Assembly (NCBI GenBank): GCA_012840965.1 | Contig: DUVQ01000012.1 | Span: 1-39,597 of the forward strand | DNA length: 39,597 nucleotides | Source: Oligoflexales bacterium | GTDB taxonomy: Bacteria; Myxococcota_A; UBA9042; DTJE01 | Direction of reading: 5' to 3' | Shown here: piece after piece, positions 201 through 30,188 of the stretch | Numbering within the stretch: position 1 is the first letter of the stretch | How the letters are laid out: each line of letters opens with the position of its first letter | Translations under genes and position numbers: made by a program | Notes under the pieces: generated by a model | What the model was told of the DNA's origin: nothing | What the model saw: the letters and a program-made list of their open reading frames with translations, nothing else | Databases searched by the model: none

Positions 201-860
201 CTACCAATGTGGAACGGTCGCGTGATTGCTCAGTCCATAAGTACTAAAAGTTCCTTGAACCGATTCTCTGACCGGTATTTGCTGGATCTGTAATGAAAAC
301 TCCTTCTCACCGCTGAAACTCTGCATTTTGATGTAAGGAAAATCTTCTGCTTTTGACCTAGTATTTCCTTCCTGCTGAGCCTTTTGATTTTCAGCATAAC
401 GTTGGTTTTGTAATTTCCTAGCTTCTTTGAAGGTTATCTGGATACCTTCCCTTTGTTCTTTGCGCCGGATGAATCTGCGGGTTAATCGGTCCAGGTTGAT
501 GTCGACCCGGTATCGCTTCACAAGCACGTATTCAGGGGTGGTTGCAGGCACGGGTTGAATACTTCTAACATGAAGGTAATCCGCTAGACGTTCCAGCCAT
601 TTGTGTAAATTCAGCCTTTGCAACTCCTCAGCAGAGGAGGCAAAAACGCGAAGTTTATTACCCAAGGATCCGCGCCTTTTTTCGTCCTGTTCGATTCTTG
701 GAGCAACATAATTTGGAAAACTGACGCCGAAGTTCACCGTTTTATCGGAGTTTTGCTGCTCAACCAATGCCAGGTGCAATTGTGTATACAACTTACTCCA
801 GATAAAATATGGCGAAGCATCAAGCGTTTCTATGAGAGTGATTTCTTGGTAAAAACGCAT
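201..860 (-). CDS. cas6f: Type I-F crRNA endoribonuclease Cas6f/Csy4
   Basis: This metal-independent RNase cuts pre-crRNA at the base of each repeat hairpin and stays bound to the 3' end of the crRNA in the Csy complex. The 219-residue product aligns from memory with Pseudomonas Csy4 (about 187 aa). It has the catalytic His at residue 29 (QLHLALV), an Arg-rich helix near 124-137 (DRLTRRFIRRKEQR) that would sit in the RNA major groove, the MQSFSGEKEF strand with candidate catalytic Ser residues, and the C-terminal TYGLS motif. It is about 30 residues longer than the Pseudomonas protein, mostly in loops near 38-60 and 140-170. The ATG has a GAGGAG ribosome site. The gene lies 12 nt after csy3 and is the last cas gene before the leader. 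Confidence 0.93.
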   Translation of the reverse strand: MRFYQEITLIETLDASPYFIWSKLYTQLHLALVEQQNSDKTVNFGVSFPNYVAPRIEQDEKRRGSLGNKLRVFASSAEELQRLNLHKWLERLADYLHVRSIQPVPATTPEYVLVKRYRVDINLDRLTRRFIRRKEQREGIQITFKEARKLQNQRYAENQKAQQEGNTRSKAEDFPYIKMQSFSGEKEFSLQIQQIPVRESVQGTFSTYGLSNHATVPHW

Positions 861-872
861 GATATCTCCTCT

Positions 873-1865: not shown

Positions 1866-1879
1866 GATAACCCCCTTTT

Positions 1880-1893
1880 AGAATAAATATTCT
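1880..1893. promoter_or_regulatory. Palindrome in the csy2-csy3 gap
   Basis: AGAATA and TATTCT flank a 2-nt AA centre in the 31-nt gap between csy2 and csy3, just before the csy3 ribosome site. It could be an RNA hairpin tuning csy3 expression or a protein site. A 2-nt loop is too tight for a simple full-length RNA hairpin, so the role is unknown. Confidence 0.3.
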
Positions 1894-1896
1894 TTA

Positions 1897-3021: not shown

Positions 3022-3043
3022 TTCATACCTCCCTTCCCTTAAC

Positions 3044-4414: not shown

Positions 4415-4537
4415 GATTTCATCTCCTAACAAAATCCCAAACGCATCATGCCATACACCTGTGACATTGTGCACATGATCGCCCATCTGGCAAAAGTTCC
4501 AAGCGAATGGTAGCACACCCTTGTGACATAGTGCTCG

Positions 4538-7500
4538 CTATTCGGCATCCTGATAAATCCCAAGCTCGTAGCAATATCTAAATTCAATGACATCCTTTTT
4601 GTCATAGCTAGCCAAGCGCATTTCCCCAAATCGTTGCGATACTTCTGTTTCGCAACTTATTTTTAAATCCTTGGCTAACGTGGCGTAAATTGTTTCGGGG
4701 TCCAAATCAAATAAAAAGCTAACCCGATCAGCCAAGCTAGGTCTGCCCTCATTCGTAATGTCAAAACCAGAGGCAGAAATTTCACCCATTTTAGGTGGTG
4801 AAACGTTTTCATTTTTCCATTGCCATTTTAATCCACCATCTGTAGCCACCAGGTATAAAGCCTCATCCTTAAGAGATTTTCTGAATGGTTGTCGTTTTTG
4901 CAAAACCCCGCACCAATGGACTTGTTCTCTCCACCAAAGTTTTGCTGCGTCGGGGTTATCAAACAAACGTCTCTGCAAAGCGTGATGTTCCAAAGCGACT
5001 AAGTTGTGTTGCCAATCAAGATTAGATTTTATGACTCGTGGTTTAGCACTTATGTCACTATATTGCTCATCTAGCAAGACCTCATTTAACTGATGTTTTT
5101 CCAGCTTCAGATCTTGGGCCTCAAAACCAGGTTTTACGAAACATGGGGCTTTGCCCTTTAATTGCTTGATGTTTTGATTGATCAATAAAATATTATTGCT
5201 ACTTGGTTGCTTGTTGCGGTGTCTTAACACGCGTCCTGCGATTTGAATGATCGAGCGCATCGAACTTGGTTCAATAATTGCCCAATCATAGTCATGATCT
5301 CGACCCACTTCAGCTACAGGTGAAGCAAGTACGACAATTATGTGATTATTAGAAGGCAACTCGTAGAGTTTTTGTCCTAGTTCAGCAGGTGGCCATGCGC
5401 CTTTACGATTGAGGTAAGAATCAAGTTTGTTTTCGAGATGAGAGCGTACCGCCAAAGGATAACGACTGTGGTAAACGCATAAATGCAAGTGATAGTTTGT
5501 TGGCAGCTCCAGCTTTATTAATTCTTTGGCTACCGCTACTAATGGGTTTATGTTTGCCATCCTGACAAGGCCAATGGAAACCCGTTTGGAATCAACCTCA
5601 ACGTGATTGTGTTCATGTAAGTCAAGTGCTCCTTTAAGAATTGTCTCTGCGAATCCCTTATAAATATTTTCTTCAGCCGAAACATTTTCTAGTAGGTTCC
5701 CTTTGTGCTTGGTGGCAGATGAATTGCTGTCTAAATACTTTACGCGCTTTTCAACGTATCCCCTATGCGCTTCCTCGAATTCCTTGCGATTAGCAATTTC
5801 TTTGGTTACTGCCCCTGTATCCTTGCGTTCATCGAACCAAGCGCAGTTAATGATGGAATTCGGATTGGAGATGTTAACTTTGGCATATTCAGACCAACCA
5901 GCTTGGTAAGCTTCAAAAGTAGCTAAGGCCAAGTCTGGTGGCATGGTAGCAGTGGACAGCAAAACCCGGCAGCCCAGCATTCCGGCCCAATGAACTAGTC
6001 GACAAAGTGCCGGCAAATCCTCCAGACCAAAGTCATCAGGCTCATCTATTACTAAATCTGACGTTAAAAGTCGTAACATTGGGCCAATTTGTTTGCCACC
6101 CTTGGTGCCATCAGTGGCAGGAATGAGGTGGTCAATTGTGCACACCAAAACAGGGGCCTGTAAAAGCTTTTCAATGCGGTTGTCTGTTTTTGTCCAGCTA
6201 TACAAGCTATGGTCCACACCTGCTTCTTGTTGAAAGTCCAGTGTCAAATCCGGGGCTAGAAAGTCATCTGAGGATTCACTTCCGGTGTCATGTTGAGCAT
6301 CTTTTTTTGCTTGTTCATTCTCGAATAATGTCTTTGATGCCGATCCTCCAACTGCGATTGCTAATTGTTCGTCACTAAGCCTCAGTTCCCTTCGATATTC
6401 CCTGCCGGTTTGTAAAGTTAGAGTCCTGAGACCAAGGGCTACTGTGAACCGGCAGTCTTGTTCTTGATCTGCTAGGGCATACATTATTTTTGCATTGGCC
6501 AGCGTTTTCCCTTTTCCTGTGGACGCCATATTAATTCCAAAAAAGCCTTGTCTAACACTCGATTCGCTAAGACTTTTGGCCTTCTTCTGCGCATCTACTT
6601 GCCACTGAAATCTTGGGTGTTCTTCTCTAGTTTTTTGTAAAAAGTCGTTGTCAGTCAGAGCAGGTAAACTGGTTCTTAACAAGGGTAACGCATCAACGAT
6701 TTCCTTTGCGGTCCTAGATACTCCAATTAGGTGCTCGTCAAGTTTTTGTTTTGGCTTACGACTTTCTTTGGAGGTGTTGGCATAGACTTCATAGTTTGGT
6801 GCCTGCCACTCTTCTGTTGTTTCCTCTTTGGCGGAATAGTTGTGATCAGCAAGCATTAATGCCATTCTAGCTAAATGAGTTGTAAACAGTTCATCATGTA
6901 ACAGATTTTTTCCTGCAATCTGTCTAATGCCAGATAAAGCCTGATCAGCAGCCTTCATAGCTCTTAAGCGCCACTTAAAACTTTTGTATGGCAACCCATC
7001 GTCATGAAATCTCCAGTTGTCCTCATAACGTTCTTCTTTTTCCCTGAAGTTGTATGAGTTCCATTCTACCTGTAGTTCGCGTTCAAACCAAGCTTCTAAG
7101 GGGCTTTTTCCACAAAGGCCCCTCGGTTCTGTTTCCTGTGTCAGCTCTTTTTTCCAATCTGGGACAACCGGCATTTTATGATGACTTACTATCAACCACC
7201 CGACTAATTGGGCGAAAGGGGGTAGTTTTGCTAGCGGATTTTGTTTCCTCTTACTTAGTCCATCCTCAAAAAGCTCATCGGAATGATTTTCCGCAACCTT
7301 GGCCAAAGCGGCAAGCCACTCTTCATCCGTTTTGTCTCCCACAAATGCTTCAAAGATTCTTAGCGATACCCACTCATGCCTGACTGGTTCAAAAATCTGT
7401 TTACTTTGTCCATTTAGCTTGTTTTGAAACAGTTGATTCGCCTTTCCAAAATCGTGAAAAAGACCCGCCAGTACTACGGCGTGTTTCATTATTGGAAGGC

Positions 7501-7822
7501 TTTGCCATTTTTCCTTATCCATAAAATGGTTCATTTCACTTTCCGTGTAATTAACTGGCACAAGTCCTCGTTCGTTAAACTTTTTTCTGTTACCCACTAT
7601 CCATAGCAAATCGCTGCGGGAACGGTGTCGAATCCAGTGGCAGCTGACAGCAGTACTTTTGCTGGCAGTTTTGCGTAACAATTTTCGAACCGCTTGTAAA
7701 CCCTCTGCAGTTATTACCGTTTGCCACGTGTTGTCACCAATGCGATCTGCGAACGCATCAAGAACACGGCGTGTCCTAGCAAGCGCCTTTTTTTCACACT
7801 GCGAGACAAAGATGACCATCAT
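4538..7822 (-). CDS. cas3: Type I-F Cas2-Cas3 fusion nuclease-helicase
   Basis: The fused protein supplies Cas2 for spacer integration with Cas1, and Cas3 for unwinding and degrading target DNA after Csy recruitment. Residues 1 to about 95 are the Cas2-like domain (MMVIFVSQCEKKALARTRR, then SCHWIRHRSRSDLLWIVG). An HD nuclease follows, with His114 and the HD pair at 123-124 (LFHDFGKA). The SF2 helicase has Walker A ASTGKGKT near 433-440, DEPD near 593-596, STAT near 623 and the arginine-finger motif QIAGRVLRHR near 860-869. All key residues appear intact. The ATG at 7822 is chosen because AGGAGG lies 10 nt upstream, within the 17-nt gap after cas1; an upstream ATG would consume that site. Length 1094 aa is normal for I-F. 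Confidence 0.95.
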   Translation of the reverse strand: MMVIFVSQCEKKALARTRRVLDAFADRIGDNTWQTVITAEGLQAVRKLLRKTASKSTAVSCHWIRHRSRSDLLWIVGNRKKFNERGLVPVNYTESEMNHFMDKEKWQSLPIMKHAVVLAGLFHDFGKANQLFQNKLNGQSKQIFEPVRHEWVSLRIFEAFVGDKTDEEWLAALAKVAENHSDELFEDGLSKRKQNPLAKLPPFAQLVGWLIVSHHKMPVVPDWKKELTQETEPRGLCGKSPLEAWFERELQVEWNSYNFREKEERYEDNWRFHDDGLPYKSFKWRLRAMKAADQALSGIRQIAGKNLLHDELFTTHLARMALMLADHNYSAKEETTEEWQAPNYEVYANTSKESRKPKQKLDEHLIGVSRTAKEIVDALPLLRTSLPALTDNDFLQKTREEHPRFQWQVDAQKKAKSLSESSVRQGFFGINMASTGKGKTLANAKIMYALADQEQDCRFTVALGLRTLTLQTGREYRRELRLSDEQLAIAVGGSASKTLFENEQAKKDAQHDTGSESSDDFLAPDLTLDFQQEAGVDHSLYSWTKTDNRIEKLLQAPVLVCTIDHLIPATDGTKGGKQIGPMLRLLTSDLVIDEPDDFGLEDLPALCRLVHWAGMLGCRVLLSTATMPPDLALATFEAYQAGWSEYAKVNISNPNSIINCAWFDERKDTGAVTKEIANRKEFEEAHRGYVEKRVKYLDSNSSATKHKGNLLENVSAEENIYKGFAETILKGALDLHEHNHVEVDSKRVSIGLVRMANINPLVAVAKELIKLELPTNYHLHLCVYHSRYPLAVRSHLENKLDSYLNRKGAWPPAELGQKLYELPSNNHIIVVLASPVAEVGRDHDYDWAIIEPSSMRSIIQIAGRVLRHRNKQPSSNNILLINQNIKQLKGKAPCFVKPGFEAQDLKLEKHQLNEVLLDEQYSDISAKPRVIKSNLDWQHNLVALEHHALQRRLFDNPDAAKLWWREQVHWCGVLQKRQPFRKSLKDEALYLVATDGGLKWQWKNENVSPPKMGEISASGFDITNEGRPSLADRVSFLFDLDPETIYATLAKDLKISCETEVSQRFGEMRLASYDKKDVIEFRYCYELGIYQDAE

Positions 7823-7839
7823 GGGCCAGTCTCCTCCTA

Positions 7840-8787
7840 TCATAAACTAGTGTGTAATTGTGATACGTGTTTGACCACGTTAAACATGAAGTCCAATGCT
7901 TTGTGATCCGTAAACGCTTGTAAACATTGTTGCCGAAATTCTTGTTCTGTTGCTCGTTCTTTAGCCGCAATAAAGGCCCAAGGTAAAACTAGCGTGTCTT
8001 TGATTAAGTCCGCAACATCAAATACTAAAGCTCCCCTTCGTGTTTTGCCATGCATAACCGCAAAGCCATGTGGTATGCCTAAAACCCACAAGGTAGTCGC
8101 TGCCAATCCATAAGCCAAATAATTTCCATGATTTAAAAAATCGTTAGCTTTATCTTCTGCGTCTCGATCCCTATTAAAATCGGGAAAATTCGTATTTTGT
8201 GCGGCAAACTTGTACAGCTTTTTTGTCACTTCAGCTTCTAGTTGTAGGAGCATTGTGACGCTGATTGCCCTAGTGATTTTGCCAGAAAAATCTTCAACTA
8301 AGTCTCGTATCAACGGGTCAGTGGCATCAAAACCTTCTTGCTTAAGGTCGCGATCATTAGTCCAGGTTTTACATAAATAGTTTAAACGCGCCAGTTGGAA
8401 CTCTTTAGCCACCGCAAGTCGCTTAGCGTCATCAAACCAAAAGCCGAGCCATCCTTGCACGTACTCTGTTGGGCGATACTCGCTTTGTGGGCTAAGCCAT
8501 TCAATCTCTGTAGCCATCAATAGGGGAGTGGCCCCGCCGCCACAAAATCCAACCATGACCCCTGCTTGGGCAAGCATCCGCATGGCCGCCTGAGTAATGG
8601 ATGTCCCAGTGCCAAGCAGCAGACACGTTGTATTAGCAACAGGTATGTTGTAGTAGCTGTTTTGTTTGTCTTCTCCAGTCAGATAAAGTACCCGGCCATC
8701 CTTTTGTAGAATCCGACAATACTCCAAGTAATAGATATTGGCTCGCTTGGAATGCAAGATAGCTTTTAAATCGGTCAGTTGTTCCAC
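7840..8787 (-). CDS. cas1: Type I-F Cas1 integrase
   Basis: Cas1 is the metal-dependent integrase that, with Cas2-3, inserts new spacers at the leader end. The 315-residue product has the expected active site: Glu184 or Glu186 in LQLEAEVTKK, His246 in GFAVMHGKTRRG, and Asp257/Asp260 in FDVADLIKD. The N-terminal half carries the beta-rich domain (TTCLLLGTGTSIT). The start is GTG at 8787, with GAGG placed 6 nt upstream. It is the first gene of the cas operon, and its 5' region is the only plausible operon promoter region. With cas2-3 intact the system looks capable of adaptation, which argues against an I-F3 transposon-associated variant, since those lack cas1 and cas2-3. Confidence 0.95.
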   Translation of the reverse strand: MEQLTDLKAILHSKRANIYYLEYCRILQKDGRVLYLTGEDKQNSYYNIPVANTTCLLLGTGTSITQAAMRMLAQAGVMVGFCGGGATPLLMATEIEWLSPQSEYRPTEYVQGWLGFWFDDAKRLAVAKEFQLARLNYLCKTWTNDRDLKQEGFDATDPLIRDLVEDFSGKITRAISVTMLLQLEAEVTKKLYKFAAQNTNFPDFNRDRDAEDKANDFLNHGNYLAYGLAATTLWVLGIPHGFAVMHGKTRRGALVFDVADLIKDTLVLPWAFIAAKERATEQEFRQQCLQAFTDHKALDFMFNVVKHVSQLHTSL

Positions 8788-9024: not shown

Positions 9025-10056
9025 CTAATAACCGGATATGGAGAAATGCATTAAATCCCTTGTTGTGCCTGGGATTTCTCCGCCCCATTTCCAAAACTTT
9101 GTGAATTCGCGATAAACAATGCTGTCCTTGGTGATGGTTTGAGTTGGTGCGGCTGTGGGGTTCCATCTGCCGCCGATGCCAAGCTTGCAGGTGCCTTGTC
9201 CTGGCCTTTCAAGTTGGCCTGGTGGGCAGTTGGTGTATAAGCCGTTGCGGTTGGCGTTGATGTCAATGGCAGTGCCAAATGAATGATTGCTTAAAAGGGT
9301 GCGGTAGCCGTTGACAATGGGGCCTCTGGTGCGGCCGGGGCGGTATCCTACGATTTGCTTTATCTCGAATTCGCCTGATTCGACGATGGCTCGTAATGCG
9401 TCTTCAACCTGCTCGCGATATACATGGCAGATTTGAAAGGGTTTTACTCCTGGGATGCCTAGCTGTGCAGGGTCAATGGTGACCTGATCCTTCCTGCATA
9501 CGGAACAACGCGGTTCTAAGGGGTCTCGTTCGTCATCCTGGATCTGGGAACATGGCTTGCGTACCAGGGGGGCCGCCTCCGCTCGCCTTTTTATGCTGTT
9601 CCAGTTGTGTAAGCGGTATGAACATTCGCAGTCGTCAGCCTCGATGACTGGTGAGGCGTCGTCAACCCAAACGTCTTGTGGTGCCTTTTCAACGCCAATA
9701 CCTCGTGGTGCGTCGTCAACTTGGCTGTCTTGGGACGCGGGTGAAGCTTCAGTGTCTGCTGCTGTGTCGTCAAATTCCGTGTCAATGGCCGCTTCATCAA
9801 CTTCCGCCCCTGGGCCCTCCGCACCTTCCGCGCCCACCGCCGCCTCCTCAACTTCCGCCTCTAGGCCCTCCGCACCTTCCGCGCCCGCTGCCGCCTCATC
9901 AACTTCCGCCTCTGGGGCCTCATCGTCAAACTCGGCCTCCTGTGGCCCGTCGTCAAACTCACCATCCGGCACCACACCGTCCTGTGCCACAGCGGAAATC
10001 GCCATCAGGCTTAACACCATGAAAGGTATCAGCAATGGTCGAACCAAAGCTTTCAT
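9025..10056 (-). CDS. Exported M15/VanY-like zinc peptidase with acidic repeat linker
   Basis: This is probably a periplasmic peptidoglycan peptidase of the M15 (D-Ala-D-Ala or L-Ala-D-Glu carboxypeptidase) group. Residues 1-24 are a signal peptide ending AVAQ. Residues 25 to about 140 are a low-complexity acidic segment rich in Glu, Asp, Ala and Gly, including a repeat of about 17 residues. The C-terminal domain (about 200-343) has the M15 zinc motif SNHSFGTAIDIN (His258, Asp265) and the second His337 in DLMHFS, plus a WKWGG stretch, so the enzyme should be active. Four cysteines (near 143, 145, 184, 187) and more in the catalytic domain may form disulfides. The ATG has GGGAG 6 nt upstream. 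It follows the LIC_10091-like gene by 19 nt, suggesting one operon. Exact bond specificity cannot be read from the sequence. Confidence 0.8.
   Translation of the reverse strand: MKALVRPLLIPFMVLSLMAISAVAQDGVVPDGEFDDGPQEAEFDDEAPEAEVDEAAAGAEGAEGLEAEVEEAAVGAEGAEGPGAEVDEAAIDTEFDDTAADTEASPASQDSQVDDAPRGIGVEKAPQDVWVDDASPVIEADDCECSYRLHNWNSIKRRAEAAPLVRKPCSQIQDDERDPLEPRCSVCRKDQVTIDPAQLGIPGVKPFQICHVYREQVEDALRAIVESGEFEIKQIVGYRPGRTRGPIVNGYRTLLSNHSFGTAIDINANRNGLYTNCPPGQLERPGQGTCKLGIGGRWNPTAAPTQTITKDSIVYREFTKFWKWGGEIPGTTRDLMHFSISGY
9766..9912 (-). repeat. Acidic-linker tandem repeat inside the M15 peptidase gene
   Basis: Three imperfect copies encode variants of EAEVDEAAAGAEGAEGL (residues 49-97). The reverse strand is therefore open over a long serine/alanine-rich frame, which is not a gene. 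Confidence 0.8.
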
Positions 10057-12693: not shown

Positions 12694-14178
12694 ATGGCGG
12701 TGCCTGCCATAACGCTAGTTGGATTGTCCCACAAGACGGCCTCGGTGGCAGTCAGGGAACTTTACGCCTTCGATGACGAGCAAGCCCGCGCAGTACTTGA
12801 AGATTTAAAAGCCAGAGGCGTCCAGGAAGCCGTCCTGCTGTCAACTTGTAATCGCGTGGAAGTTTACGGCGTTAGTAGCGGCGAAACTGGCCATCAGGAA
12901 ATCAGATCCAAGATTGTCGAGTCGCTGGCAATGGCCAAGGGTGTGAATTCAAACGAAATTGTGCCCCATCTGTACACCTTGGAAGGTATAGCTGCTATTA
13001 GGCACCTTTTCAGGGTGGCGGCCTCGCTAGATTCGCTGGTTCTTGGGGAGCCCCAGATCTTGGGCCAGACCAAAAGTGCATACAGGATCGCTTCGGAAGC
13101 TGGAACAGTTGGTCCTGTGCTTGGGCGCTTTTTTGAGCGCGCCTTCAAGGTGGCAAAAGAGGTGCGTTCTTCCACAGGGGTGGGTACTGGGCAGGTCTCG
13201 GTCGGCTCGATAGCTGTGGATCTGGCTCGCAAAGTGTTTGGCGATTTGGCCAAATGCACCGTTTTGTTGCTGGGCGCCGGCAAGATGGCTGAGGCAGTCG
13301 CCAAAACGTTGGCCGCTGCTGGGGCGCAAAAAGTTGTCGTGGCCAATAGGACCGTTGAAAGGGCTATGGCCGTGGCAGAGCAATTTGGTTGGAGCGGCGT
13401 GTCGCTGGAAAACCTGCGGTCGCTGTTGATTGAAGCCGACGTGGTGATTGCCTCGGTTGCATATCCTGGATTTATCATTGATAGAGCAGGGTTAAGGGCT
13501 TTGATGTCTAAACGGCGCTATCGCCCCATGTTTATGGTTGATATTGCAGTACCTAGGGTGCTTGATCCTAAGGCCGCGGATTTAGAGGGTATTTACCTGT
13601 ATAACATTGATGACTTCAACCAGATTATTACTGAACACCTGCAACGACGGGCTCAGGACGTGCGCTTGGCTGACGCGGTAATCGAGCGGGAAGTTCAGGG
13701 GATAGATCGGTACTTGAAGAAGCTGGAGATTCAGCCGTTGGTGTCTCAACTTGGTAAAAGGGCGGCTGATTTGCGTCAGCGTGAAACCCAGCGTGCGCTT
13801 ATGGAGCTTGGTGATTTGACTGACGCCCAGCGTAAGGTTGTGGAAGCGTTGGCTAATTCACTTGTCAACAAGTTGATGGCAGACCCGTTGGCCACCTTGC
13901 AAAAGGCAGCCCAGGATGGGGATGTGAACCAGCTTGCAGATGCTGCCAGGCGGTTGTTTCACCTGCAAGGCTCGGACAGCCCACATGACGATGCCTTGGC
14001 GCATTTTGATGCCTCGCCCAACGATGCCTTGGCGTATTTTGATGCCGCACCCCATGATGCCTTGGCGCATTTTGATGCCGCGCTCCACGATGACGCCGCA
14101 TCCCATGATGCCGCGCCCCACACCGTGCCCCAAGCCGCACCCAACGCCCAACCAAACGATGGAGACGACAACCAATGA
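12694..14178 (+). CDS. hemA: Glutamyl-tRNA reductase with a repetitive C-terminal tail
   Basis: The enzyme reduces glutamyl-tRNA(Glu) to glutamate-1-semialdehyde, the first step of C5 tetrapyrrole synthesis. Hallmarks are SHKTA (residues 12-16), the catalytic Cys52 in STCNRVEVYG, GEPQILGQ near 118, the nucleotide-binding GAGKMAEAVAKTLA near 195, and the C-terminal dimerisation helices with RRLFHLQ near 425. The usual family length is about 420-430 aa; this one is 494 aa. The extra tail from about residue 430 is made of 11-residue repeats of DALAHFDAAPH type ending in a Pro/Ala/Asn-rich stretch. hemX abuts the start, and the stop overlaps hemC as ATGA, so the operon is tightly coupled. Confidence 0.95.
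   Translation: MAVPAITLVGLSHKTASVAVRELYAFDDEQARAVLEDLKARGVQEAVLLSTCNRVEVYGVSSGETGHQEIRSKIVESLAMAKGVNSNEIVPHLYTLEGIAAIRHLFRVAASLDSLVLGEPQILGQTKSAYRIASEAGTVGPVLGRFFERAFKVAKEVRSSTGVGTGQVSVGSIAVDLARKVFGDLAKCTVLLLGAGKMAEAVAKTLAAAGAQKVVVANRTVERAMAVAEQFGWSGVSLENLRSLLIEADVVIASVAYPGFIIDRAGLRALMSKRRYRPMFMVDIAVPRVLDPKAADLEGIYLYNIDDFNQIITEHLQRRAQDVRLADAVIEREVQGIDRYLKKLEIQPLVSQLGKRAADLRQRETQRALMELGDLTDAQRKVVEALANSLVNKLMADPLATLQKAAQDGDVNQLADAARRLFHLQGSDSPHDDALAHFDASPNDALAYFDAAPHDALAHFDAALHDDAASHDAAPHTVPQAAPNAQPNDGDDNQ
13990..14121 (+). repeat. 33-bp tandem repeat in the hemA 3' end
   Basis: Three near-identical 33-bp units start at 13990, 14023 and 14056, followed by shorter relics at 14089 and 14107. Each encodes D-A-L-A-(H/Y)-F-D-A-x-x-(H/N). 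Unit length is a multiple of three, so copy changes keep the frame. Confidence 0.9.
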
Positions 14179-20349: not shown

Positions 20350-21393
20350 ATGGCTAAGGAAACTAAAAGTGCCGCTACTGATGATCGCGAACGAAATATA
20401 GCTGTTGCAGTACAAACAATCGAACGCCAGTTCGGTAAAGGCAGCATCATGCGCCTAAAAGAGGGCGAATCTGTTGTCGCCGATATTGGCGTGATCCCTA
20501 CCGGTTCGTTAACCCTCGATACTGCCTTGGGAATTGGTGGCTATCCAAAGGGCAGGGTAGTGGAAATCTATGGGCAGGAATCGTCGGGTAAGACGACTTT
20601 GGCGCTTTTGGCCATTGCCGAGGCTCAAAAGGCCGGTGGCCTTGCGGTTTTTATCGATGCCGAGCACGCACTGGACGTGAATTACGCCAGGAAGCTTGGG
20701 GTGTCGATTGATGACCTTTTGCTTGCCCAGCCGGACACTGGCGAGCAAGCACTTGAGATTGCCGAGACCTTGGTTCGCACAAACGCCGTGGATATCGTAG
20801 TTGTCGACTCGGTCGCAGCGCTTGTTCCCAAGGCTGAGCTTGAAGGCGATATGGGCGACAGCCACGTGGGACTTCAGGCAAGGCTGATGTCACAGGCGCT
20901 GCGCAAGCTTGCTGGCGTTTTGTCGAAATCAAAAACATGCATGGTTTTCATCAATCAAATCCGCATGAAAATCGGTGTCATGTACGGCAACCCTGAAACT
21001 ACAACTGGTGGAAACGCGCTGAAGTTTTATTCCAGCGTTCGCCTTGAGGTGCGCCGTGGCCAAGCCATAAAGGAGGGCGACGGCTCTTCCAGCGGTGTCA
21101 GGACCAGAGTCAAGGTTGTAAAGAACAAAATGGCGCCGCCCTTTAAAGAGGCCGAGTTTGACTTGATTTATGGCCAGGGCATCAACCGCCTTGGTGAGCT
21201 TATCGACTTGGCCTCACAAGCTGGTGTGGTAGACAAGGCCGGTTCCTGGTTTAGCTTTAACGGTGAGCGACTTGGTCAAGGACGTGAACAGTCCATGGCA
21301 ACCCTTTCAGAAAAACCTGAATTGTTGGCCCAAGTGGAAAACGGCGTTTTGGAAAAATACGGGATCGCCGCTCGCGCTATCGTTAGCAAATAG
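20350..21393 (+). CDS. recA: DNA recombinase RecA
   Basis: RecA forms the nucleoprotein filament for homologous recombination and SOS induction. The 347-residue product has Walker A GQESSGKT at 75-82, [23 protein letters not shown] with Walker B, the L1/L2 loops ([52 protein letters not shown]) and the normal C-terminal domain. The acidic tail is short (ends IVSK). TTGGAGG lies 8 nt before the ATG. The 76-nt gap to the upstream ThpR-like gene shows no clear SOS box of the CTGT-N8-ACAG or GAAC-N4-GTTC kind. recX is not the next gene; alaS is. Confidence 0.98.
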
Positions 21394-21488
21394 GGCGTCC
21401 AAAACGTCTTTCAACGTGCCTGCGGGGTGTAGACCTTTGGTACCAGCGCGGTCCAATTTTAGGCGCCCAAGTTTTGAGGAGAACCCAA

Positions 21489-24092
21489 GTGAAATCAGCA
21501 GATATTCGTAAGCGGTTTCTGGATTTTTTTGCATCTAAGGGCCATCGCGTGGTTGCAAGCCATTCGCTGCTGCCACCAGCCGATCCGACTTTGTTGTTTG
21601 TTAATGCTGGAATGGTCCAGTTTAAGGACGTTTTTACCGGGCAACGCGATCTTGGCTATGGTAGGGCTGCGTCATCTCAAAAATGTTTGAGGGTCAGTGG
21701 TAAACATAATGATCTTGATGAAGTAGGCAGGACGCCACGCCATCATACTTTTTTTGAAATGCTTGGCAATTTCAGCTTTGGAGATTACTTCAAGGCGGAT
21801 GCTTGTGCTTGGGCTTGGGAACTGCTGACCGAAGGATATGGGCTGGACCCCAACGACCTTTGGATTACCGTGCATCCAGAGGACGACGAGGCTAGGCGAA
21901 TTTGGATCGACCAAGTTGGGGTGGCGGCTGATCGGATAATCGATGACCCAAGCAACTTTTGGTCAATGGGAGACACAGGTCCATGTGGTCCATGCAGTGA
22001 AATCCACATAGACAGGGGGCCCAGCTTTAAAGGTACCTCCATGCACGACCAAGGTGACCGCTTCATGGAGCTGTGGAACCTGGTTTTCATGCAGTATGAC
22101 CGCGATGCCGCAGGTAAGCTGACGCCTTTGCCAGCCCCCTCGATTGATACTGGGATGGGGCTTGAAAGAATCGCCTCTGTGCTTCAAGGTGTGCGCACCA
22201 ACTACGATACTGACCTGTTCATGCCTTTGATCAATAAAACCGCTGAGATAGCTGGGGTTGAGTTTGGTAAAGATCTGGAAACTGACACTGCTCTTAGGGT
22301 CATAGCTGATCACGCCAGGGCCACCGCGTTTTTGATTTGTGATGGTGTGTATCCTGAAAATGAAGGGCGTGGTTATGTGTTAAGGCGTTTGATGCGACGT
22401 GCGCTTCGCTTTGGCCACAAATTGGGACTGCGACAGCCGTTTTTTACCGAGGTCTGTTTGGAAGTGGCCCCAACAATGGGGGTTGCTTGGCAGGAGCTTG
22501 AAAAGGCGGCCCCGATCATCGAGAAGATTGCCGGGCAGGAAGAGGACCGCTTCTTGCGCACTCTTTCTTCAGGAATGGAACTGCTGGAATCGGCGATTGC
22601 CGCCGCCAAAGGCCAGCTTGACGGAGAGACCGCTTTTACGCTGTACGATACCCATGGATTTCCAGTGGATCTGACGGCTGTAATTGCTGAAGAACATGGT
22701 CTTTCCGTGGATCATGACGGCTTTTTGGCAAAAATGGAGGAGCAGCGGGCGCGAGGCCGAGCCTCTTGGAAGACCCACACAGAGGATTTGGCTGGAGTGC
22801 TTGATTATTGCTCAGATAATGAGCTTAAGTCCGAATTTGTTGGTTATTCAGCTGTCGAGTCGGCAGCAAAGCCAATAGAATCCCAAGTGTCAGCTATTTT
22901 TGTGGACGGCGCACCTGTCCAAGAGGTCAAGGCAGGGACTGAGGCCGCTGTTTTGGTTCAGGCAACTCCCTTTTATGGCGAATCTGGCGGTCAGATTGGC
23001 GACAAGGGTGTCATCACAGGTCCTTTGGGTGGCTTACAGGTGACCGACACAAAGCGTCCAAGGGAAGATGTCATCGTTCATCTAGGGACAGTCACCGGTG
23101 AAAAGCTTGCTGTTGGCGACCAGGTGTTGCTTGTGGTGGACAATGTCAGGCTGAAAACTAGGCGTAATCACAGCGCTACCCACCTTTTACACAAGGCTCT
23201 TCGCGAGGTGTTGGGGGCACATGTGCGTCAGCGCGGCTCTTTGGTTGCACCTGATAGGCTGCGTTTTGACTTTCAGCATACTGGGCCTGTTACAGATGAA
23301 GAAATCGCCAAAATTGAGGCCAAAGTCACCAAGGATATTTTGGCGGATGAGCCTGTTGTAACGGATGTTTTGGCCTTTGATCAGGCTGTGGAACGAGGTG
23401 CCCTGCACTTTTTTGGCGACAAGTACGGTGACGAGGTCCGGATGGTTTCAATGGGTGATTCCATCGAGCTTTGTGGTGGGACCCACGTTTCACGAACTGG
23501 CCAGATATTTGCCTTCAAAATTGTGTCTGAAACAGGTGTGGCCGCTGGTGTGCGTCGAATAGAGGCGGTTACCGGTGATGTGGCCTTGGCTTTGTTGCAG
23601 GCAAATGACCGCTTGGTCCAAGATCTTGGTAGGCTGCTTAAAACTGAGTCAGAAGGATTGATCGAGCGCGTCAAAAAAATGTTGGCCGATGAAAAGGTCC
23701 TGCGAAAAGAACTGGCAGACGCACAAGTCAAGGCAGCGTCAGGTGGCGCTCTGTCTAACGACAAGGTCGTGGAGGTAAACGGTATCAAGGTTACCGCGGT
23801 TGTAGCCGATGGTATGGACTCCAAGGCTATGAGGGAACTGTCTGATATTATTAGAAGTCGCGTAGGCTCAGGGCTGGTCCTCTTGACCCGCCGTGAGGAT
23901 GAAAAGCTTAATGTTGTGCTGGCAGCAACCAAGGATATTGTTGACCGGGCGCCCGCCAATCGTTTGCTTGGGGATATCCTAAAAAGCATGGGTGGAAAGG
24001 GTGGTGGAAACCCAGAATTGGCAATGGGAGGCATTTCAAGTGGTGGAGACCCGCTAAAGATACTTGACTCTTTGATTGCTGCTCTGCGATGA
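21489..24092 (+). CDS. alaS: Alanyl-tRNA synthetase
   Basis: The enzyme charges tRNA-Ala and edits Ser/Gly mischarging. The 867-residue product contains the class II catalytic core (FVNAGMVQFKDVFTG, KHNDLDEVGRTPRHHTFFEMLGNFSFGDYF, GMGLERIASVLQG), the editing domain zinc motifs (HSATHLLH near residue 560, and CGGTH near 661) and the C-Ala domain with GGGNPELAMGG near the end. I chose GTG 21489 (KSADIRKRF) because AGGAG lies 7 nt upstream; the frame starting at TTG 21474 would put that site inside the coding region. The recA-alaS order is common in proteobacteria. The 95 nt between show no clear terminator. Confidence 0.97.
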   Translation: MKSADIRKRFLDFFASKGHRVVASHSLLPPADPTLLFVNAGMVQFKDVFTGQRDLGYGRAASSQKCLRVSGKHNDLDEVGRTPRHHTFFEMLGNFSFGDYFKADACAWAWELLTEGYGLDPNDLWITVHPEDDEARRIWIDQVGVAADRIIDDPSNFWSMGDTGPCGPCSEIHIDRGPSFKGTSMHDQGDRFMELWNLVFMQYDRDAAGKLTPLPAPSIDTGMGLERIASVLQGVRTNYDTDLFMPLINKTAEIAGVEFGKDLETDTALRVIADHARATAFLICDGVYPENEGRGYVLRRLMRRALRFGHKLGLRQPFFTEVCLEVAPTMGVAWQELEKAAPIIEKIAGQEEDRFLRTLSSGMELLESAIAAAKGQLDGETAFTLYDTHGFPVDLTAVIAEEHGLSVDHDGFLAKMEEQRARGRASWKTHTEDLAGVLDYCSDNELKSEFVGYSAVESAAKPIESQVSAIFVDGAPVQEVKAGTEAAVLVQATPFYGESGGQIGDKGVITGPLGGLQVTDTKRPREDVIVHLGTVTGEKLAVGDQVLLVVDNVRLKTRRNHSATHLLHKALREVLGAHVRQRGSLVAPDRLRFDFQHTGPVTDEEIAKIEAKVTKDILADEPVVTDVLAFDQAVERGALHFFGDKYGDEVRMVSMGDSIELCGGTHVSRTGQIFAFKIVSETGVAAGVRRIEAVTGDVALALLQANDRLVQDLGRLLKTESEGLIERVKKMLADEKVLRKELADAQVKAASGGALSNDKVVEVNGIKVTAVVADGMDSKAMRELSDIIRSRVGSGLVLLTRREDEKLNVVLAATKDIVDRAPANRLLGDILKSMGGKGGGNPELAMGGISSGGDPLKILDSLIAALR

Positions 24093-24125
24093 TCCTTGGT
24101 CGTACGTTGGGGACTGGAGGTAATT

Positions 24126-24935
24126 GTGGCTAGGAAGAAAAAAGATTCAGGTTCAAAAGAGTCAGGCATCGAGATTGGCTTGCTGCAACGTCATTCGAAA
24201 GTGCCGTCGACCGATGAGTTTCGATCTCTTTACGTTTCACTCTATTCCGGTAAACCGATTGGTGGTGATGAAACTTTGATGGCTGAAGCGGCAAGGGAGC
24301 ACGACGCTGAAGTTCCACCTATCTTCTTTGAGGAAGGTTTTGTGGATCGCAGGGCGTCAAGTGAACCTTTAGTGCCCTTGTCGATTCCTACAGACAAAGT
24401 GATGGACGAGCCTGTGTTTGTCGATGAAGACGTTGCCGTGCCGATGGACGAGCCTGTGTTTGTCGATGAGGACGCGACCGTACTGCTTGAAGAGCCAATT
24501 GACGAGCCGGTAGCTGAAGTTGCTGGCGAGCCGGTGGACGAAGCTGCTTGGGCGGAAGCGGCTGAGGAACCGCCGCAAGACGCGCCAGATCTGAACGCCA
24601 CCATGGCCTTTGATGCGTTGGATATCCCGCCGGAGCCTGTGGATGAGCCTGACTTGGTTGAATCCGCCCAGGAAGTGCCGCAGGACCCACCAGATCTGAA
24701 CGCTACCATGTCCTTCGATGCGTTGGACATCCCGGAGCCAGTGCCAGAGGAAGTTGCGGATCCAAATGCGACGCAGCTCATGGATGCCCTGGATGATGAG
24801 TTCGAGTCAGAGGACGATGACGAACCGGAGACTGGCACCATCGCCATGGGAGCGTTGACTGAAGAAGAGTTGGCCGCTGCAGTTGCTCAGCAGGAGCAAG
24901 GCGGTAAAAAGAAAAAGAAACGTCGTCATCGCTAA
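24126..24935 (+). CDS. Acidic repeat protein with NAT-x-DALD motifs and a basic tail; function unknown
   Basis: I do not recognise this 269-residue protein as a known family. The GTG at 24126 has GGAGG 5 nt upstream. The N-terminus is basic (VARKKKDSGSKES), followed by a short globular-looking part to about residue 85 (IGLLQRHSKVPSTDEFRSLYVSLYSGKP). Then come two copies of MDEPVFVDED, and two copies of PDLNATM(A/S)FDALDIP spaced 35 residues apart. DPNATQLMDALDD and TGTIAMGAL look like relics of the same motif. The C-terminus is GGKKKKKRRHR. The threonines in an acidic setting resemble phosphothreonine sites read by FHA domains, a guess only. It lies 33 nt after alaS and before the TIG lipoprotein. 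No signal peptide or membrane segment is seen. Confidence 0.75.
   Translation: MARKKKDSGSKESGIEIGLLQRHSKVPSTDEFRSLYVSLYSGKPIGGDETLMAEAAREHDAEVPPIFFEEGFVDRRASSEPLVPLSIPTDKVMDEPVFVDEDVAVPMDEPVFVDEDATVLLEEPIDEPVAEVAGEPVDEAAWAEAAEEPPQDAPDLNATMAFDALDIPPEPVDEPDLVESAQEVPQDPPDLNATMSFDALDIPEPVPEEVADPNATQLMDALDDEFESEDDDEPETGTIAMGALTEEELAAAVAQQEQGGKKKKKRRHR
24402..24740 (+). repeat. Two repeat families inside the NAT-DALD gene
   Basis: A 42-bp unit (starts at 24402 and 24444) encodes MDEPVFVDED plus four residues. A separate 105-bp duplication repeats the CAGATCTGAA core at 24586 and 24691 and encodes the two PDLNATM-FDALDIP copies. Both units keep the frame. Confidence 0.85.
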
Positions 24936-25068: not shown

Positions 25069-28000
25069 TTGAGAAAGCTTCTGACATTGATGCTTTTTGG
25101 TTTTACAGCTTGCTCCCTGTCTTCCTTTGGCTTTACGCAAGATGTAGACGATGAAGACATCACAAAGCCTGATGCATACGAGTTTTTAGATACAAGTGAT
25201 CAGGAAGACCCAGTCATAGGAATTCATAGGGTCGTACCTGCTCGCGGCCCGACAACTGGTGGGACCGAGGTCGAGATTCAGGGTTTTGGGTTTGCCGCTC
25301 ACTCGCTTGTTGTATTTGGTTCGTCTAAAGCTACAAACGTTGTTGTCCAAAATGATCACTCCATCTTGGCGACAACCCCTGCAAATCAATCAGGTTTTGT
25401 GTCAGTTGCCGTTGTCCAACCTGACAATACTGTGCTGCGTCAGGACAAGGCCTTTTTTTACGAAACAGACGTTTCAATCTTTGGTGTAAAGCCTGATAAG
25501 GGGCCTGAAACTGGCGGAACCCCAGTAACAATAACTGGTTATGGTTTTACCCAAAACACCAGCTTCATAATTGGAGGCCGTCTTGTATTTGATGCCCGCG
25601 TCTTGGATGAGCAGACAGCAGTGGCTGTTACCCCGCCATCAAGTGCCGGTCCAAAGGATGTCATGGCGGTGTCGGAAGGTGGAACTGGGCGTTTGCGTCG
25701 GGGATTTTCATACCTTGCGACACCTTCAACACCAAAGTGTTTTCCTGCCGTTGTCCCTGTTGGTCAGGAAACTTTGGTTTTTGCAACCGCGGTCCCACCA
25801 GTTGACTTGGTGATTGCAACGCCAGGTAAGGCCGCAAATATCACATCTTTACAGGATTTCGCGAATTTTGAGCTGACAGCGACTCAAGCTGGCCCAATCG
25901 AAGTCACGCTAAGTGGTCCTGCAGGTGTAGCTACAAACTCGTCCTGTCTTTGGGCAACAGACAAGGATATTAGGACGGGGAACCTTGAAATATTGGGCTT
26001 TTCACCTGGAGTCGTTCCGGAATCAGGCGGTATGCCTGGGGTTTTGGGGGTCATTGGAATCCAAGCTGGGGTAAGGGTCGAGATTGGCAAAACCAATGCT
26101 GAGATCGTGTCCATCGACCCTGAAGCCGGTTACATTGAGGTTTTGATCCCCCCACATGAGCCAGGTGTAGTGGCTTGTACCGTCGCAAGTGGTGCCCGCA
26201 CGGTAACTTTGCAAAACTGCCTGCGTTATGTGCCTGATATGGCAATTGACGAAGTTTTTCCAAGCGAAGGCCCTGCAACTGGAGGCACCCGAGTTTTGCT
26301 CAAAGGCAAAGGGTTGGGTCAAGTTAGCCAGGTAAACGTCGGGCCTTTACCAGCCACCATAGTTGCTGGCCCCTCAAATTCTGCAATTGAGGTTGTTACC
26401 TCTGCTGGTAGCCCTGGACGTCACGATGTAATTGCGATTGCAAGCGATGGACGAAGGGCCGTCTTGCCAAAGTCCTTCAGTTATGGGTCAAATGACGTCG
26501 CATTAATCGCCATCACCCCTGATTCTGGAGCGATAGCAGGTGGCACTATCGTTTCTTTGGTAGGTTCTGGATTTGCGCCAGGTTGTCGCGTTGAATTTGG
26601 TTCAATGCCTGCGGAAATTATTGATGATTTTGACCCTGCAAGACTTCTGGTACGTACTCCTATGCAAGAGGAGCCAGGCCAATATGATGTGTCTGTTCGC
26701 TTCCCCAATGGACATTTAAAAACGCTACGTGAGGGGTTCACCTATTTCGACCCGACCGGAATTTTTGGGGGCGTTTGGGGTGAATCCATTGATGGCGCAG
26801 TAAATGTGACTGTAAAAGATGGTTCTACTGGCAAGTCTCTTGTTGGGGCTTTTGTTTTGCTTGGCCCCGATGATGAGGCCCAGTACTTTGGGCGTACCAA
26901 CTTGACGGGCCAGCTGACTTTGTCAGGCCCAGACCTGGTTGGTCCGATCCAGATAACTGCAACGCGTGAAGATTACACGACGTTTTCGATAGTTGGTGTC
27001 GATGCTGAAAATATCACTTTGTACATCGACTCCATTCTTCCACCGCCGGACACTGGCAGCGGCAGTGGCTCTGGTTCCGATCCTTTACCACCCGGCCTTG
27101 TGAAGGGGAAAGTCACTGGAATTGAAAAGAACCTACTGATGCCAGCTGACTCCTGTGTCAACCAGCAACTGATCCATGGTCCATTGTGCAGGCCTTGTTC
27201 CAGCGACCTAGATTGTGACTATGCCAAGTGTGTCCATTTTTCACAGGGCGGCTTTTTTTGCGCGACAGATTGCGTCAGTGATGACGATTGTCCCGATGGT
27301 TACTCATGTTTTGCATCTTTTGGAACCGGTCTTGTATGCAAACCTTCGACAGGGCGAGTTGAAATTCGATGTAACACTACGCTGTCTGGAGCATACTCAT
27401 ATCCGCCTACTCAGGGGCCTGGGGCATTGGTTGGGCCGCAGCGTTCCTATGTGGTCAATTCCAGGCTTGGAACGGTCGGGGTGCAATGTGAGGGCGGTGT
27501 GCGCCATTTTTCAGATGGGAACTTCGAGCCGATGGTTTTTGGCTTGACCCTTCCCATTACTGTTTATCCAGCTCGAATCACCGAAGATCAAGACGTAGAC
27601 CTCAACATCCACCTGGATCGCGATCTGAAGGTCAGATTTGTAAATGCTCCAGGTGGTGCTGATGGTCCAAATGACCACAGTTTGATGGCGGCTATCGAGT
27701 TGGGAGTAGCTGGGGCTTTAAGGCCGTGGCCAGTGATGGGTGGCTACGACCTGAATCATTACCATCTGAACAAGCTTCCAAGGGAATTCAAAGGGCCTTT
27801 GGAAACCGCCAAGATGATGTTCATGGGTGAGGCCAACTCAAGGGTACCAGGCGGCATGCCATACTCGGTCTCTCGCGTTTCAGATTGGCTGCCTGGAAAA
27901 AAGGACACAGTGGCGCTAATTGGGGCAAACTATGGGACAGTCCTTGCCCAGGAGGTTCGTCCGGAGGTTTATGCGGCATGCCCTGTTGCTGAGGGCAGCT

Positions 28001-29106
28001 TGCTGTTTGGGCCAAATGGTCGGACTTGGTTGATCGATCACGACAAAAAAGTGTCCCAGATGCCTTCCGCAGCCTCAAGTACTCTGTATGCTTGTACCAA
28101 TTACGGCGAGTCGATTTTTGCTGTTGGAGACGGGGGTGTTATCACTAGGTTGGAAGCTGGTGTTTGGCAACGAGAAGCTGTTCCAACCGCCAAAACCCTG
28201 ATGGCCATTGCTTTTGACCACGATGGAACCGGTTGGGCTGGGGGCGATGGGATCCTGCTGCGTCGCGCATCGGATGGCACCTGGATTGAGACCCCTTATG
28301 GGTCAAATCAAGCGATTCGTTCGCTTATTTCGATTCCTGGTGGTGGGTTAATTGGGTTTGGTGACAAGGGGCTGGTCATTAGAATCGCTGCAGAAACCGC
28401 CAGTCCGCTGCTACCTTTTCCTGGAAATAAGGACCTTTTGACAGCAGTTATAGCCGGTGATCAGATTGTGGTGGCCGGAGCGCAAGGTGGGGCGTACATT
28501 GGCCCTTGGATGGGCCCCTTCAACCCAATTCCCATCTCCACATTTGTAGATATCACAGCCTTGACTGTCACGGACGACGGCAGCATTTACGCGGCAGGCA
28601 GTCTTGGTCACGTGTTTGTATTTGATGGCACCCAGTGGTCCAAGATTGAGATCGCAGGATTCAATAGTGAAATCACTGTGTTAATTCCAACTGAGGATGG
28701 GAAAATCCTGGTGCTCGCCTCTGATGATCTAGCCATTGGTCCCTTTCTTGGAATAGCAAAATATCAAAGTCCAATAGTCAACTCTCCATGGTTAAACAGG
28801 ACCATCGAGTGGTCTTTTGATCGTCTACCAACCCCATCGTTCACGTATATGGGCCTTTATGGTTCGAAGGCAAAATCGGCATGGGTAGTTGTTGGCCCTG
28901 GACACATCCAGAAGGTGCGTTTGCCAGACCTTTCTGTCAAAGGAGGGCCTGAGCTAAAGGCTCCCTTGCCCGGCAGCGTTCGGATAAGGGCCTATCATGT
29001 GCTTAATAACGCCTTTGACATAAATCGATTTGATAACGCCTCGTTATACTCATCCAGTTGGAGATCTTGGGTTATTCAGCAGGTGGAAGCACTATTTCTG
29101 GACTGA
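25069..29106 (+). CDS. Giant lipoprotein with IPT/TIG domains, Cys-rich region and propeller-like repeats
   Basis: The 1345-residue product probably starts at TTG 25069 (RKLLTLMLFGFTAC), with GGGAGG 5 nt upstream and a lipobox ending at Cys15; the frame is open further upstream but shows no ribosome site. It has IPT/TIG beta-sandwich repeats near residues 50-130, 135-220, 305-385 (degenerate), 390-470 and 476-560, typically P-x-x-GP-x-TGGT. A carboxypeptidase-regulatory-like domain follows (563-650), then a SGSGSGS linker near 662, a Cys-rich block at 695-757 (CSSDLDC, CVSDDDCPDGYSC) typical of Myxococcota surface proteins, and a C-terminal part (about 980-1290) with repeated AVGDGGVI / GFGDKGLVIRI / AAGSLGHVFVF units like a beta-propeller. 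It is likely surface-anchored for binding. Function unknown. Confidence 0.78.
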   Translation: MRKLLTLMLFGFTACSLSSFGFTQDVDDEDITKPDAYEFLDTSDQEDPVIGIHRVVPARGPTTGGTEVEIQGFGFAAHSLVVFGSSKATNVVVQNDHSILATTPANQSGFVSVAVVQPDNTVLRQDKAFFYETDVSIFGVKPDKGPETGGTPVTITGYGFTQNTSFIIGGRLVFDARVLDEQTAVAVTPPSSAGPKDVMAVSEGGTGRLRRGFSYLATPSTPKCFPAVVPVGQETLVFATAVPPVDLVIATPGKAANITSLQDFANFELTATQAGPIEVTLSGPAGVATNSSCLWATDKDIRTGNLEILGFSPGVVPESGGMPGVLGVIGIQAGVRVEIGKTNAEIVSIDPEAGYIEVLIPPHEPGVVACTVASGARTVTLQNCLRYVPDMAIDEVFPSEGPATGGTRVLLKGKGLGQVSQVNVGPLPATIVAGPSNSAIEVVTSAGSPGRHDVIAIASDGRRAVLPKSFSYGSNDVALIAITPDSGAIAGGTIVSLVGSGFAPGCRVEFGSMPAEIIDDFDPARLLVRTPMQEEPGQYDVSVRFPNGHLKTLREGFTYFDPTGIFGGVWGESIDGAVNVTVKDGSTGKSLVGAFVLLGPDDEAQYFGRTNLTGQLTLSGPDLVGPIQITATREDYTTFSIVGVDAENITLYIDSILPPPDTGSGSGSGSDPLPPGLVKGKVTGIEKNLLMPADSCVNQQLIHGPLCRPCSSDLDCDYAKCVHFSQGGFFCATDCVSDDDCPDGYSCFASFGTGLVCKPSTGRVEIRCNTTLSGAYSYPPTQGPGALVGPQRSYVVNSRLGTVGVQCEGGVRHFSDGNFEPMVFGLTLPITVYPARITEDQDVDLNIHLDRDLKVRFVNAPGGADGPNDHSLMAAIELGVAGALRPWPVMGGYDLNHYHLNKLPREFKGPLETAKMMFMGEANSRVPGGMPYSVSRVSDWLPGKKDTVALIGANYGTVLAQEVRPEVYAACPVAEGSLLFGPNGRTWLIDHDKKVSQMPSAASSTLYACTNYGESIFAVGDGGVITRLEAGVWQREAVPTAKTLMAIAFDHDGTGWAGGDGILLRRASDGTWIETPYGSNQAIRSLISIPGGGLIGFGDKGLVIRIAAETASPLLPFPGNKDLLTAVIAGDQIVVAGAQGGAYIGPWMGPFNPIPISTFVDITALTVTDDGSIYAAGSLGHVFVFDGTQWSKIEIAGFNSEITVLIPTEDGKILVLASDDLAIGPFLGIAKYQSPIVNSPWLNRTIEWSFDRLPTPSFTYMGLYGSKAKSAWVVVGPGHIQKVRLPDLSVKGGPELKAPLPGSVRIRAYHVLNNAFDINRFDNASLYSSSWRSWVIQQVEALFLD

Positions 29107-29166: not shown

Positions 29167-30159
29167 TCACCGACTCCATCGCAACAGTGCCTGGGCTTCC
29201 AAAAGAGCCCCAAATGGACCGCCTTCAAGCAACAGATTCATTTCCAGGGTGCCTCCACACAGGCAGGCGTTGCAATCCTTGGGCTCAATCGCCTTCATCG
29301 CGTCCATGACCGTTGGGTGATCCATCAAAGGTGTGTGTAAACCGTTTAGTTCTCCGGCGCATGAATAGATAGCGCCGGACGGATCCATTCTGCAAAACAG
29401 CCGACCACTACCACAAGCCACTTTACGTGAATAAACAGGCCATTCCATGTAGTAATCCAGTGCTCGGTAGGAGTTCAAAACTGGAGCTCCAGCCTTTTTT
29501 AGCCGCCTAATCTTCTTTAGGGTAAGCTGCATCTGCGCAGGCTGTGGGGCTGCCGCATTAAAACGGTCAGTATCTTTGCAAACTACAGGGTTAACAGGTT
29601 GAAATCGAATTGGTAATCCTTGGGCTTCAACAAAAATCTGATCGATAAAATCAAGATTCCCTTTGGTAAGAGTGCAGTTCAATCGCACTGGAACTTTGGC
29701 CTTTTTCGCAACCTCGATAGCCCGTTTTACTGCAGCATATGCCCCCTTGCCTCGGAGCTTGTCGTGAATTTCTTCGGGGCCATCAAGACTCATCGCTACG
29801 CCATCGATATATTGGAGTATTTCTTGGCGCTGCGGCAGTAAAAATCCATTGGTGTTCAGATCCACTGCAATGCGGTGCTTCTTTAAAAACTTGGCCAATT
29901 CGATAACGTCTTCTCTGACTAGGGCCTCGGCCCCTCCAAGGATACAAAATCGAAGGCCGGCCTTGATAAATCGCTCCAGGTGCAGCAACGCCCCCTCAGC
30001 GTCAAGTTCTGCCGCCTGAAATTCTGGCACCCCACAGTAAGAGCAACGCTGATTACAACGGTAAGTGACGTCAAAACCAAGCACTGCGGGTGCTTTGCGG
30101 TTAAAGGCCCAGTACTTGGCCACATCTATCATCAATCCAGTCCTTGATAATTTAATCAT
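29167..30159 (-). CDS. Radical SAM protein with SPASM-like C-terminal cysteines
   Basis: The product (330 aa from the ATG at 30159) has the CxxxCxxC cluster CNQRCSYC for the SAM-binding 4Fe-4S centre and a TIM-barrel layout (VAMSLDGPEEIHD, VRLNCTLTKGN). The GGEP motif is altered to GAEA in ILGGAEALVREDV; the Glu is kept. The C-terminal part has further cysteines (CGSGRLFC, YSCAGEL, CNACLC) like a SPASM or twitch domain with an auxiliary cluster. Substrate is unknown; no precursor peptide gene is seen nearby. Two starts are possible: ATG 30159, or ATG 30132 with AAGGA 8 nt upstream. It is convergent with the TIG lipoprotein (60-nt gap) and divergent from gspC. Confidence 0.82.
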   Translation of the reverse strand: MIKLSRTGLMIDVAKYWAFNRKAPAVLGFDVTYRCNQRCSYCGVPEFQAAELDAEGALLHLERFIKAGLRFCILGGAEALVREDVIELAKFLKKHRIAVDLNTNGFLLPQRQEILQYIDGVAMSLDGPEEIHDKLRGKGAYAAVKRAIEVAKKAKVPVRLNCTLTKGNLDFIDQIFVEAQGLPIRFQPVNPVVCKDTDRFNAAAPQPAQMQLTLKKIRRLKKAGAPVLNSYRALDYYMEWPVYSRKVACGSGRLFCRMDPSGAIYSCAGELNGLHTPLMDHPTVMDAMKAIEPKDCNACLCGGTLEMNLLLEGGPFGALLEAQALLRWSR

Positions 30160-30188
30160 ATACCCCAATTCCGTCTGGGTCGATTTCT

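Follow-up and report, generated by a model that had tools for sequence, protein, structure and literature searches.

Phosphothreonine peptides are bound by FHA domains with the help of a determinant at position +3 (PMC5549992). The FHA domain of DgcB takes up a self-peptide, LEKpTSIVASDT, with the +3 residue in its pocket, and hydrophobic residues at +2 and +3 are common to this peptide and OdhI (PMC6733907). On the kinase side, PknA-dependent sites of Mycobacterium have acidic residues at −1 and at −3 to −6, and a hydrophobic residue at +3 (PMC7164672). In Myxococcus, the Kil apparatus, a Tad-like predation machinery, contains the FHA-fused ATPase KilF together with many FHA proteins, and the signalling input to these proteins is described there as still open (PMC8460266).

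We analysed a window of 39,597 nucleotides, positions 1 to 39,597 of contig DUVQ01000012.1 from an Oligoflexales bacterium (assembly GCA_012840965.1), in which the alanyl-tRNA synthetase gene alaS is followed by a gene for a protein of 269 residues (Table 1). Like GarA/OdhI and DgcB, this protein has threonines with a hydrophobic +3 residue in a disordered segment (PMC6733907). It differs from them in having no FHA domain and in carrying several copies of the motif, and would therefore act in trans. The protein has no Pfam match, and none of the 13 members of its family (one of them partial) was matched by any Pfam or NCBIfam model, including the FHA domain by which the GarA/OdhI family is defined. 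A further comparison is offered by PopZ of the alphaproteobacteria, which combines a short helical client-binding region with an acidic, proline-rich disordered linker and is encoded beside a tRNA synthetase gene. By this description the 269-residue protein resembles PopZ in its helical head, its acidic disordered linker and its tRNA synthetase neighbour, but it has a basic tail in place of the oligomerising C-terminus, and Thr motifs in addition. No published description of the alaS-linked protein was found in the literature searched, mostly at the level of listings.

Table 1. Positions in the window of the alaS-linked gene, its parts and its upstream neighbour.
Feature	Position	Strand	Basis
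Complete gene for 269 aa, from the GTG through the stop codon	24126..24935	+	open reading frame preceded by GGAGG
Probable ribosome-binding site GGAGG, 5 nt 5' of GTG	24116..24120	+	sequence reading
Conserved N-terminal module of 34 residues, SGIEIGLLQRHSKVPSTDEFRSLYVSLYSGKPIG, with a short helix-turn-helix predicted	24162..24263	+	profile A4, AF2
Relic Thr motif T118, TVLLEEP	24477..24497	+	sequence reading
Thr motif 1, T159, TMAFDAL	24600..24620	+	
Thr motif 2, T194, TMSFDAL	24705..24725	+	
Thr motif 3, T216, TQLMDAL	24771..24791	+	
Thr motif 4, T238, TIAMGAL	24837..24857	+	
Basic C-terminal tail, KKKKKRRHR	24906..24932	+	
Candidate FHA-ligand peptides PDLNATMSFDALDIPE and ETGTIAMGALTEE			
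alaS (alanyl-tRNA synthetase), upstream neighbour	21474..24092	+	Pfam tRNA-synt_2c, tRNA_SAD, DHHA1

The acidic linker of the protein is 210 residues long, with 64 Asp or Glu against 4 Lys or Arg, and it holds every copy of a motif that follows the grammar TxxΦxAΦ, where Φ is a hydrophobic residue. Two copies are nearly identical (PDLNATMAFDALDI at T159 and PDLNATMSFDALDI at T194), two are divergent (DPNATQLMDALD at T216 and GTIAMGALT at T238), and a weaker relic, ATVLLEEP, is found at T118. When the linker was shuffled, four such motifs were reached in none of 20,000 trials, in agreement with the initial annotation, which had noted motif copies and relics in an acidic chain. That annotation had also placed basic ends at both termini. 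The basic tail is present in all 12 full-length family proteins, but the basic N-terminus is not a general feature, since MARKKK begins this protein whereas several orthologs begin with MSDLLS, MAQDAR or MDRLVI; the conserved N-terminal part is an LLERHSxVPSxEExLxRYV module just after the start and not a basic stretch. An AF2 model, built from a shallow alignment of 13 rows and with a mean pLDDT of 53.8, leaves the linker without structure and places helices at residues 19–22, 29–40, 49–58 and 246–257, of which the well-predicted part holds the first two only. The head alone was predicted well (block pLDDT 78 and 88), and showed no resemblance to solved structures (best E 0.16). Composition and the model thus support a largely disordered protein with charge segregation, as had been proposed from the single sequence. 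It is presumably cytoplasmic.

Searching with the 269-residue protein alone gave matches in six of 52 related genomes, its own genome included. There it returned only itself, and a single-protein scan of genome contigs confirmed no relative. A profile made from the first orthologs matched 13 of the 14 genomes of the family and order. In the exception, G008, alaS was not found either, so that the locus is probably unassembled there, and this genome was left out of the counts. Orthologs are accordingly known from 12 other genomes, one of them (G013) with a protein cut by the contig end and excluded from the motif counts. The family also occurs in five named MAG records, three of them from uncultured Myxococcales and the others labelled Myxococcota or Deltaproteobacteria bacterium. 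In every family or order genome in which the region was assembled (13/13) the gene lies directly 3' of alaS on the same strand; conservation of this neighbourhood had been proposed as a check on the gene. Pfam confirms both alaS and recA in the window. Of the 12 relatives fetched, 10 have recA upstream of alaS, and in the other two a contig end interrupts the region. Between these two genes, 10 of the 12 carry a GspE-like match (36–42% identity); it is missing at this place in the window (21393–21474) and in G002, and in G011 the place is not in view.

All 12 full-length proteins keep the short N-terminal module (consensus LLERHSxVPSxEExLxRYVxRYAG), an acidic linker of the Pro/Ala/Glu type and a basic tail, which ends in RHR in nine. 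The linkers vary from 109 to 250 residues and carry one to six copies of TxxΦxAΦ, depending on how strictly it is defined. The remainder of the linker aligns poorly across the family, yet the motif recurs in 12/12, a point on which the initial annotation had let its reading depend. Identity to the first row of the alignment is 25–41%. We conclude from these sequence comparisons that the gene encodes a real, fast-evolving, mostly unstructured and lineage-restricted protein family of uncultured Myxococcota.

The first position of the motif is strongly biased towards threonine. With a loose pattern, the 12 proteins gave 44 T-forms and one S-form; with a first definition of the core, position 0 was Thr in 28 of 29 cases and Ala in the remaining one, and with a second definition it was Thr in 32 of 36, with three Ala and one Ser. 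Thr and Ser are about equally frequent in the linkers of these proteins. A hydrophobic residue stands at +3 after 73 of 119 Thr but only 13 of 106 Ser of the family linkers, and +4 is often acidic (50/119), unlike the basic +4 residue that PknA-dependent sites prefer (PMC7164672). Motif density is far above that of shuffled linkers, except in G010, where the count was reached by 93 of 2,000 shuffles, and G004 (27), where the difference is weaker. Copies and orthologs share descent, and these counts do not represent independent events. Thr at the site and a hydrophobic +3 residue, two of the features expected of an FHA phosphothreonine ligand, were both found in the family.

An alternative is that TxxΦxAΦ is a short binding peptide for one dedicated partner that works unphosphorylated, for example as a Thr-capped helical turn. 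Read as a pattern, Ala at +5 and the hydrophobic +6 residue could indeed line one face of a short helix. A helix cap, however, would tolerate Ser, Asp or Asn, whereas Ser occupies position 0 in only one of 45 motifs, and the AF2 model, at low confidence, shows no helix at the motifs. Discrimination of Thr from Ser is a requirement of phosphothreonine readers and not of a helix cap, and the bias therefore favours phosphothreonine reading. Since the same motif also follows FHA domains, as described below, we consider an unphosphorylated peptide unlikely.

The distribution of the motif in the genomes was followed at the level of DNA. A strict pattern for T[VIM][SAT]F[DE]A was found at 13 places in 13 family genomes, against one for a reversed control, and 10 of the 13 places are inside the alaS-linked gene, in seven genomes. 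The three places outside it were rejected, their frames being unlike the alaS-linked family. A looser pattern in the genome of the window gave 128 places against 77 for the reversed control; among the matches listed, only the alaS-linked gene has at least two within 500 bases on one strand. The initial annotation had suggested looking for the motif elsewhere in the genome, and the same grammar was found behind an FHA domain. The protein concerned is FHA-T2SSE-like, and of the 11 genomes in which the stretch behind its FHA domain was read, 10 have TxxΦxAΦ there, as TISIQAI in the genome of the window itself and elsewhere as TVAMPVL, TIAMPAF, TVAMPAL (twice), TIVMTAM, TVAMPAP, TVAMPAV and TVSMSAF (twice). 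In the genome of the window this protein is encoded at L154 3298–5094 on the − strand. In G006 the linker reads TVSMPSL, departing from the motif at +5 alone, and no such protein was seen at the loci fetched from G004 and G010. The motif forms an island within an otherwise varying disordered linker, and none of 5,000 shuffles of the first six linkers placed it in all six. As in GarA/OdhI and DgcB, these proteins carry the motif in cis (PMC6733907). The FHA domain is identified by Pfam, and its N-terminal position before a T2SSE-like region recalls KilF (PMC8460266); the proteins differ from KilF in that their T2SSE match is weak and falls short of the Pfam cut-off, and that GKT or GKS stands at the expected place in none of the six aligned.

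The motif is absent from most FHA open reading frames examined. Thirty FHA loci were scanned: 14 gave a recognised frame, six of these with a T-form match, and 16 gave none. One of the matches, in L070, probably sits in a folded domain, and another FHA protein, in G007, has TRALEVP twice and TVLLQAP. The genome of the window has 16 kinase matches and 14 FHA matches; kinases and FHA proteins are common in these bacteria, so that their co-occurrence with the gene is weak evidence.

The initial annotation had ventured a signalling scaffold whose phosphothreonines are read by FHA domains. This suggestion gains from the bias for Thr over Ser, the hydrophobic +3 residue and the occurrence of the motif beside FHA domains, and we lean towards the view that the 269-residue protein is disordered and serves FHA proteins as a multivalent hub whose phosphothreonines they read. 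Hanks-type kinases would phosphorylate the motif threonines, which would then be bound by FHA domains with the hydrophobic +3 residue as specificity determinant. The FHA-T2SSE-like proteins, with a linker motif of their own, are the most likely source of these domains. Several motif copies could provide avidity and so gather FHA proteins, perhaps in competition with the motif that the FHA-T2SSE-like proteins hold in cis. The head may serve for docking on a partner, while the tail may attach to an acidic surface such as a membrane, nucleic acid or the ribosome. More tentatively, it is possible that the alaS-linked hubs of Myxococcota recruit, by their phosphothreonine tags, FHA-fused proteins resembling secretion or pilus ATPases in trans and compete with the tag that each of these has in cis, so that kinase activity would switch them from a self-bound state to one clustered on the hub. 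The Thr motif common to the hub and an FHA protein provides a concrete candidate ligand grammar, TxxΦxAΦ, and the alaS-linked family may be a new bacterial example of multivalent phospho-scaffolding.

We also considered whether the protein works through its head and tail, for instance as a small regulator that docks on a translation- or envelope-related partner, with the linker as an acidic spacer whose Thr motifs matter in some lineages only. A profile of the 34-residue head from 20 genomes (A4) was searched over 377 genomes of the phylum. At E ≤0.0013 it matched 24 genomes, 13 from the family and order and 11 from elsewhere in the class; the 20 rows of A4, among them the head in the window (E 3.7e-13), match by construction, and G014, G035, G021 and G024 are independent. 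The relatives in G035, G021 and G024 are complete, with acidic linker and basic tail, and that in G014 is cut by a contig end. The best match outside the class had an E value of 0.006. At E ≤0.1 the search returned 68 of the 377 genomes, and the matches outside the class, about 40, are near the chance expectation at this threshold and were rejected as noise. Ten of the 12 class families thus have the head. There was no match in f6 among the 20 of its 22 genomes whose results were listed, nor in the one genome of f11. With the full-length profile, matches were confined to the family and order, apart from a weak one in the class (G024, E 0.02); G024 was missing from a second profile search (E 0.001), and was later backed by the head profile, its motifs and its tail. 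One match from the phylum search, G168, was judged from its locus to be a chance low-complexity match.

Outside the family, alaS was found in 25 of the 29 genomes of other class families examined, in some near a contig end, and the head directly follows it in seven (G015, G016, G018, G020, G023, G026 and G027). Seven of nine complete relatives from other families have the basic tail, whereas linker and tail are both missing from the short forms in G015 and G026. Beyond the family and order the Thr motif is clear only in f10, namely in G021 (EDATTM[I/F]QAMPD, three times) and G024 (ESTMLIQAMPD and GATKMIAAFRD), while the conservation of head and tail extends further. In seven other-family proteins a hydrophobic +3 residue follows 20 of 58 Thr and 29 of 114 Ser, which is not distinct. 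This weak bias, with the restriction of the motif to f10, indicates that the role of the linker is not class-wide, and the Thr grammar is well supported by sequence for the alaS-linked family and f10 only. The wide distribution of the head over a varying linker, the short forms, and the constancy of the alaS neighbour within the family and order and in seven genomes beyond it all suit a protein that works through head and tail. Against this stands the recurrence of the motif in all 12 linkers of the family, and we regard such a protein as quite improbable. A reading of the gene as chance repeats in non-coding or low-complexity sequence can be dismissed, for although the lack of Pfam and NCBIfam matches and the fast evolution would fit, the orthologs occupy the same locus and encode head, motif and tail in the same frame, and the head alone independently recovers relatives in other families.

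Several further features were seen around the relatives. The tail of the G016 relative (L097), KKKGGFFSMFRKKK, is basic with aromatic residues, which hints at membrane binding. In f10 the relative's neighbour is glutamate-cysteine ligase (Pfam GCS2; L147 4580–6109 and L148 1–552), and frames resembling this enzyme were recognised by eye in L149 and, after alaS, in L096 and L114. In both G035 (L149) and G024 (L148) the relative is preceded, in an identical order, by a TPR-like and a coiled-coil-like protein; both were assigned by eye and are possible partners of it.

The window contains other genes of note. Downstream of the alaS-linked gene, a TIG-domain protein gene (25069–29106, + strand) adjoins a radical SAM gene (29167–30168, − strand). 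The former runs in the direction of alaS here and opposite to it in 7/7 relatives with both in view, and therefore seems inverted in this genome. Glutamyl-tRNA reductase (12694–14178, + strand; Pfam GlutR domains) has a repeated DALAHFDA-type tail past its last domain, and the product of 9025–10056 (− strand) has a repetitive acidic region of the EAEVDEAA type before an M15-type D-alanyl-D-alanine carboxypeptidase domain. At the start of the window, from 201 to 8787 on the − strand, lie type I-F CRISPR-Cas genes, identified by Pfam as Csy4, Csy3, Csy2, Csy1, Cas3 with a Cas2 domain, and Cas1.
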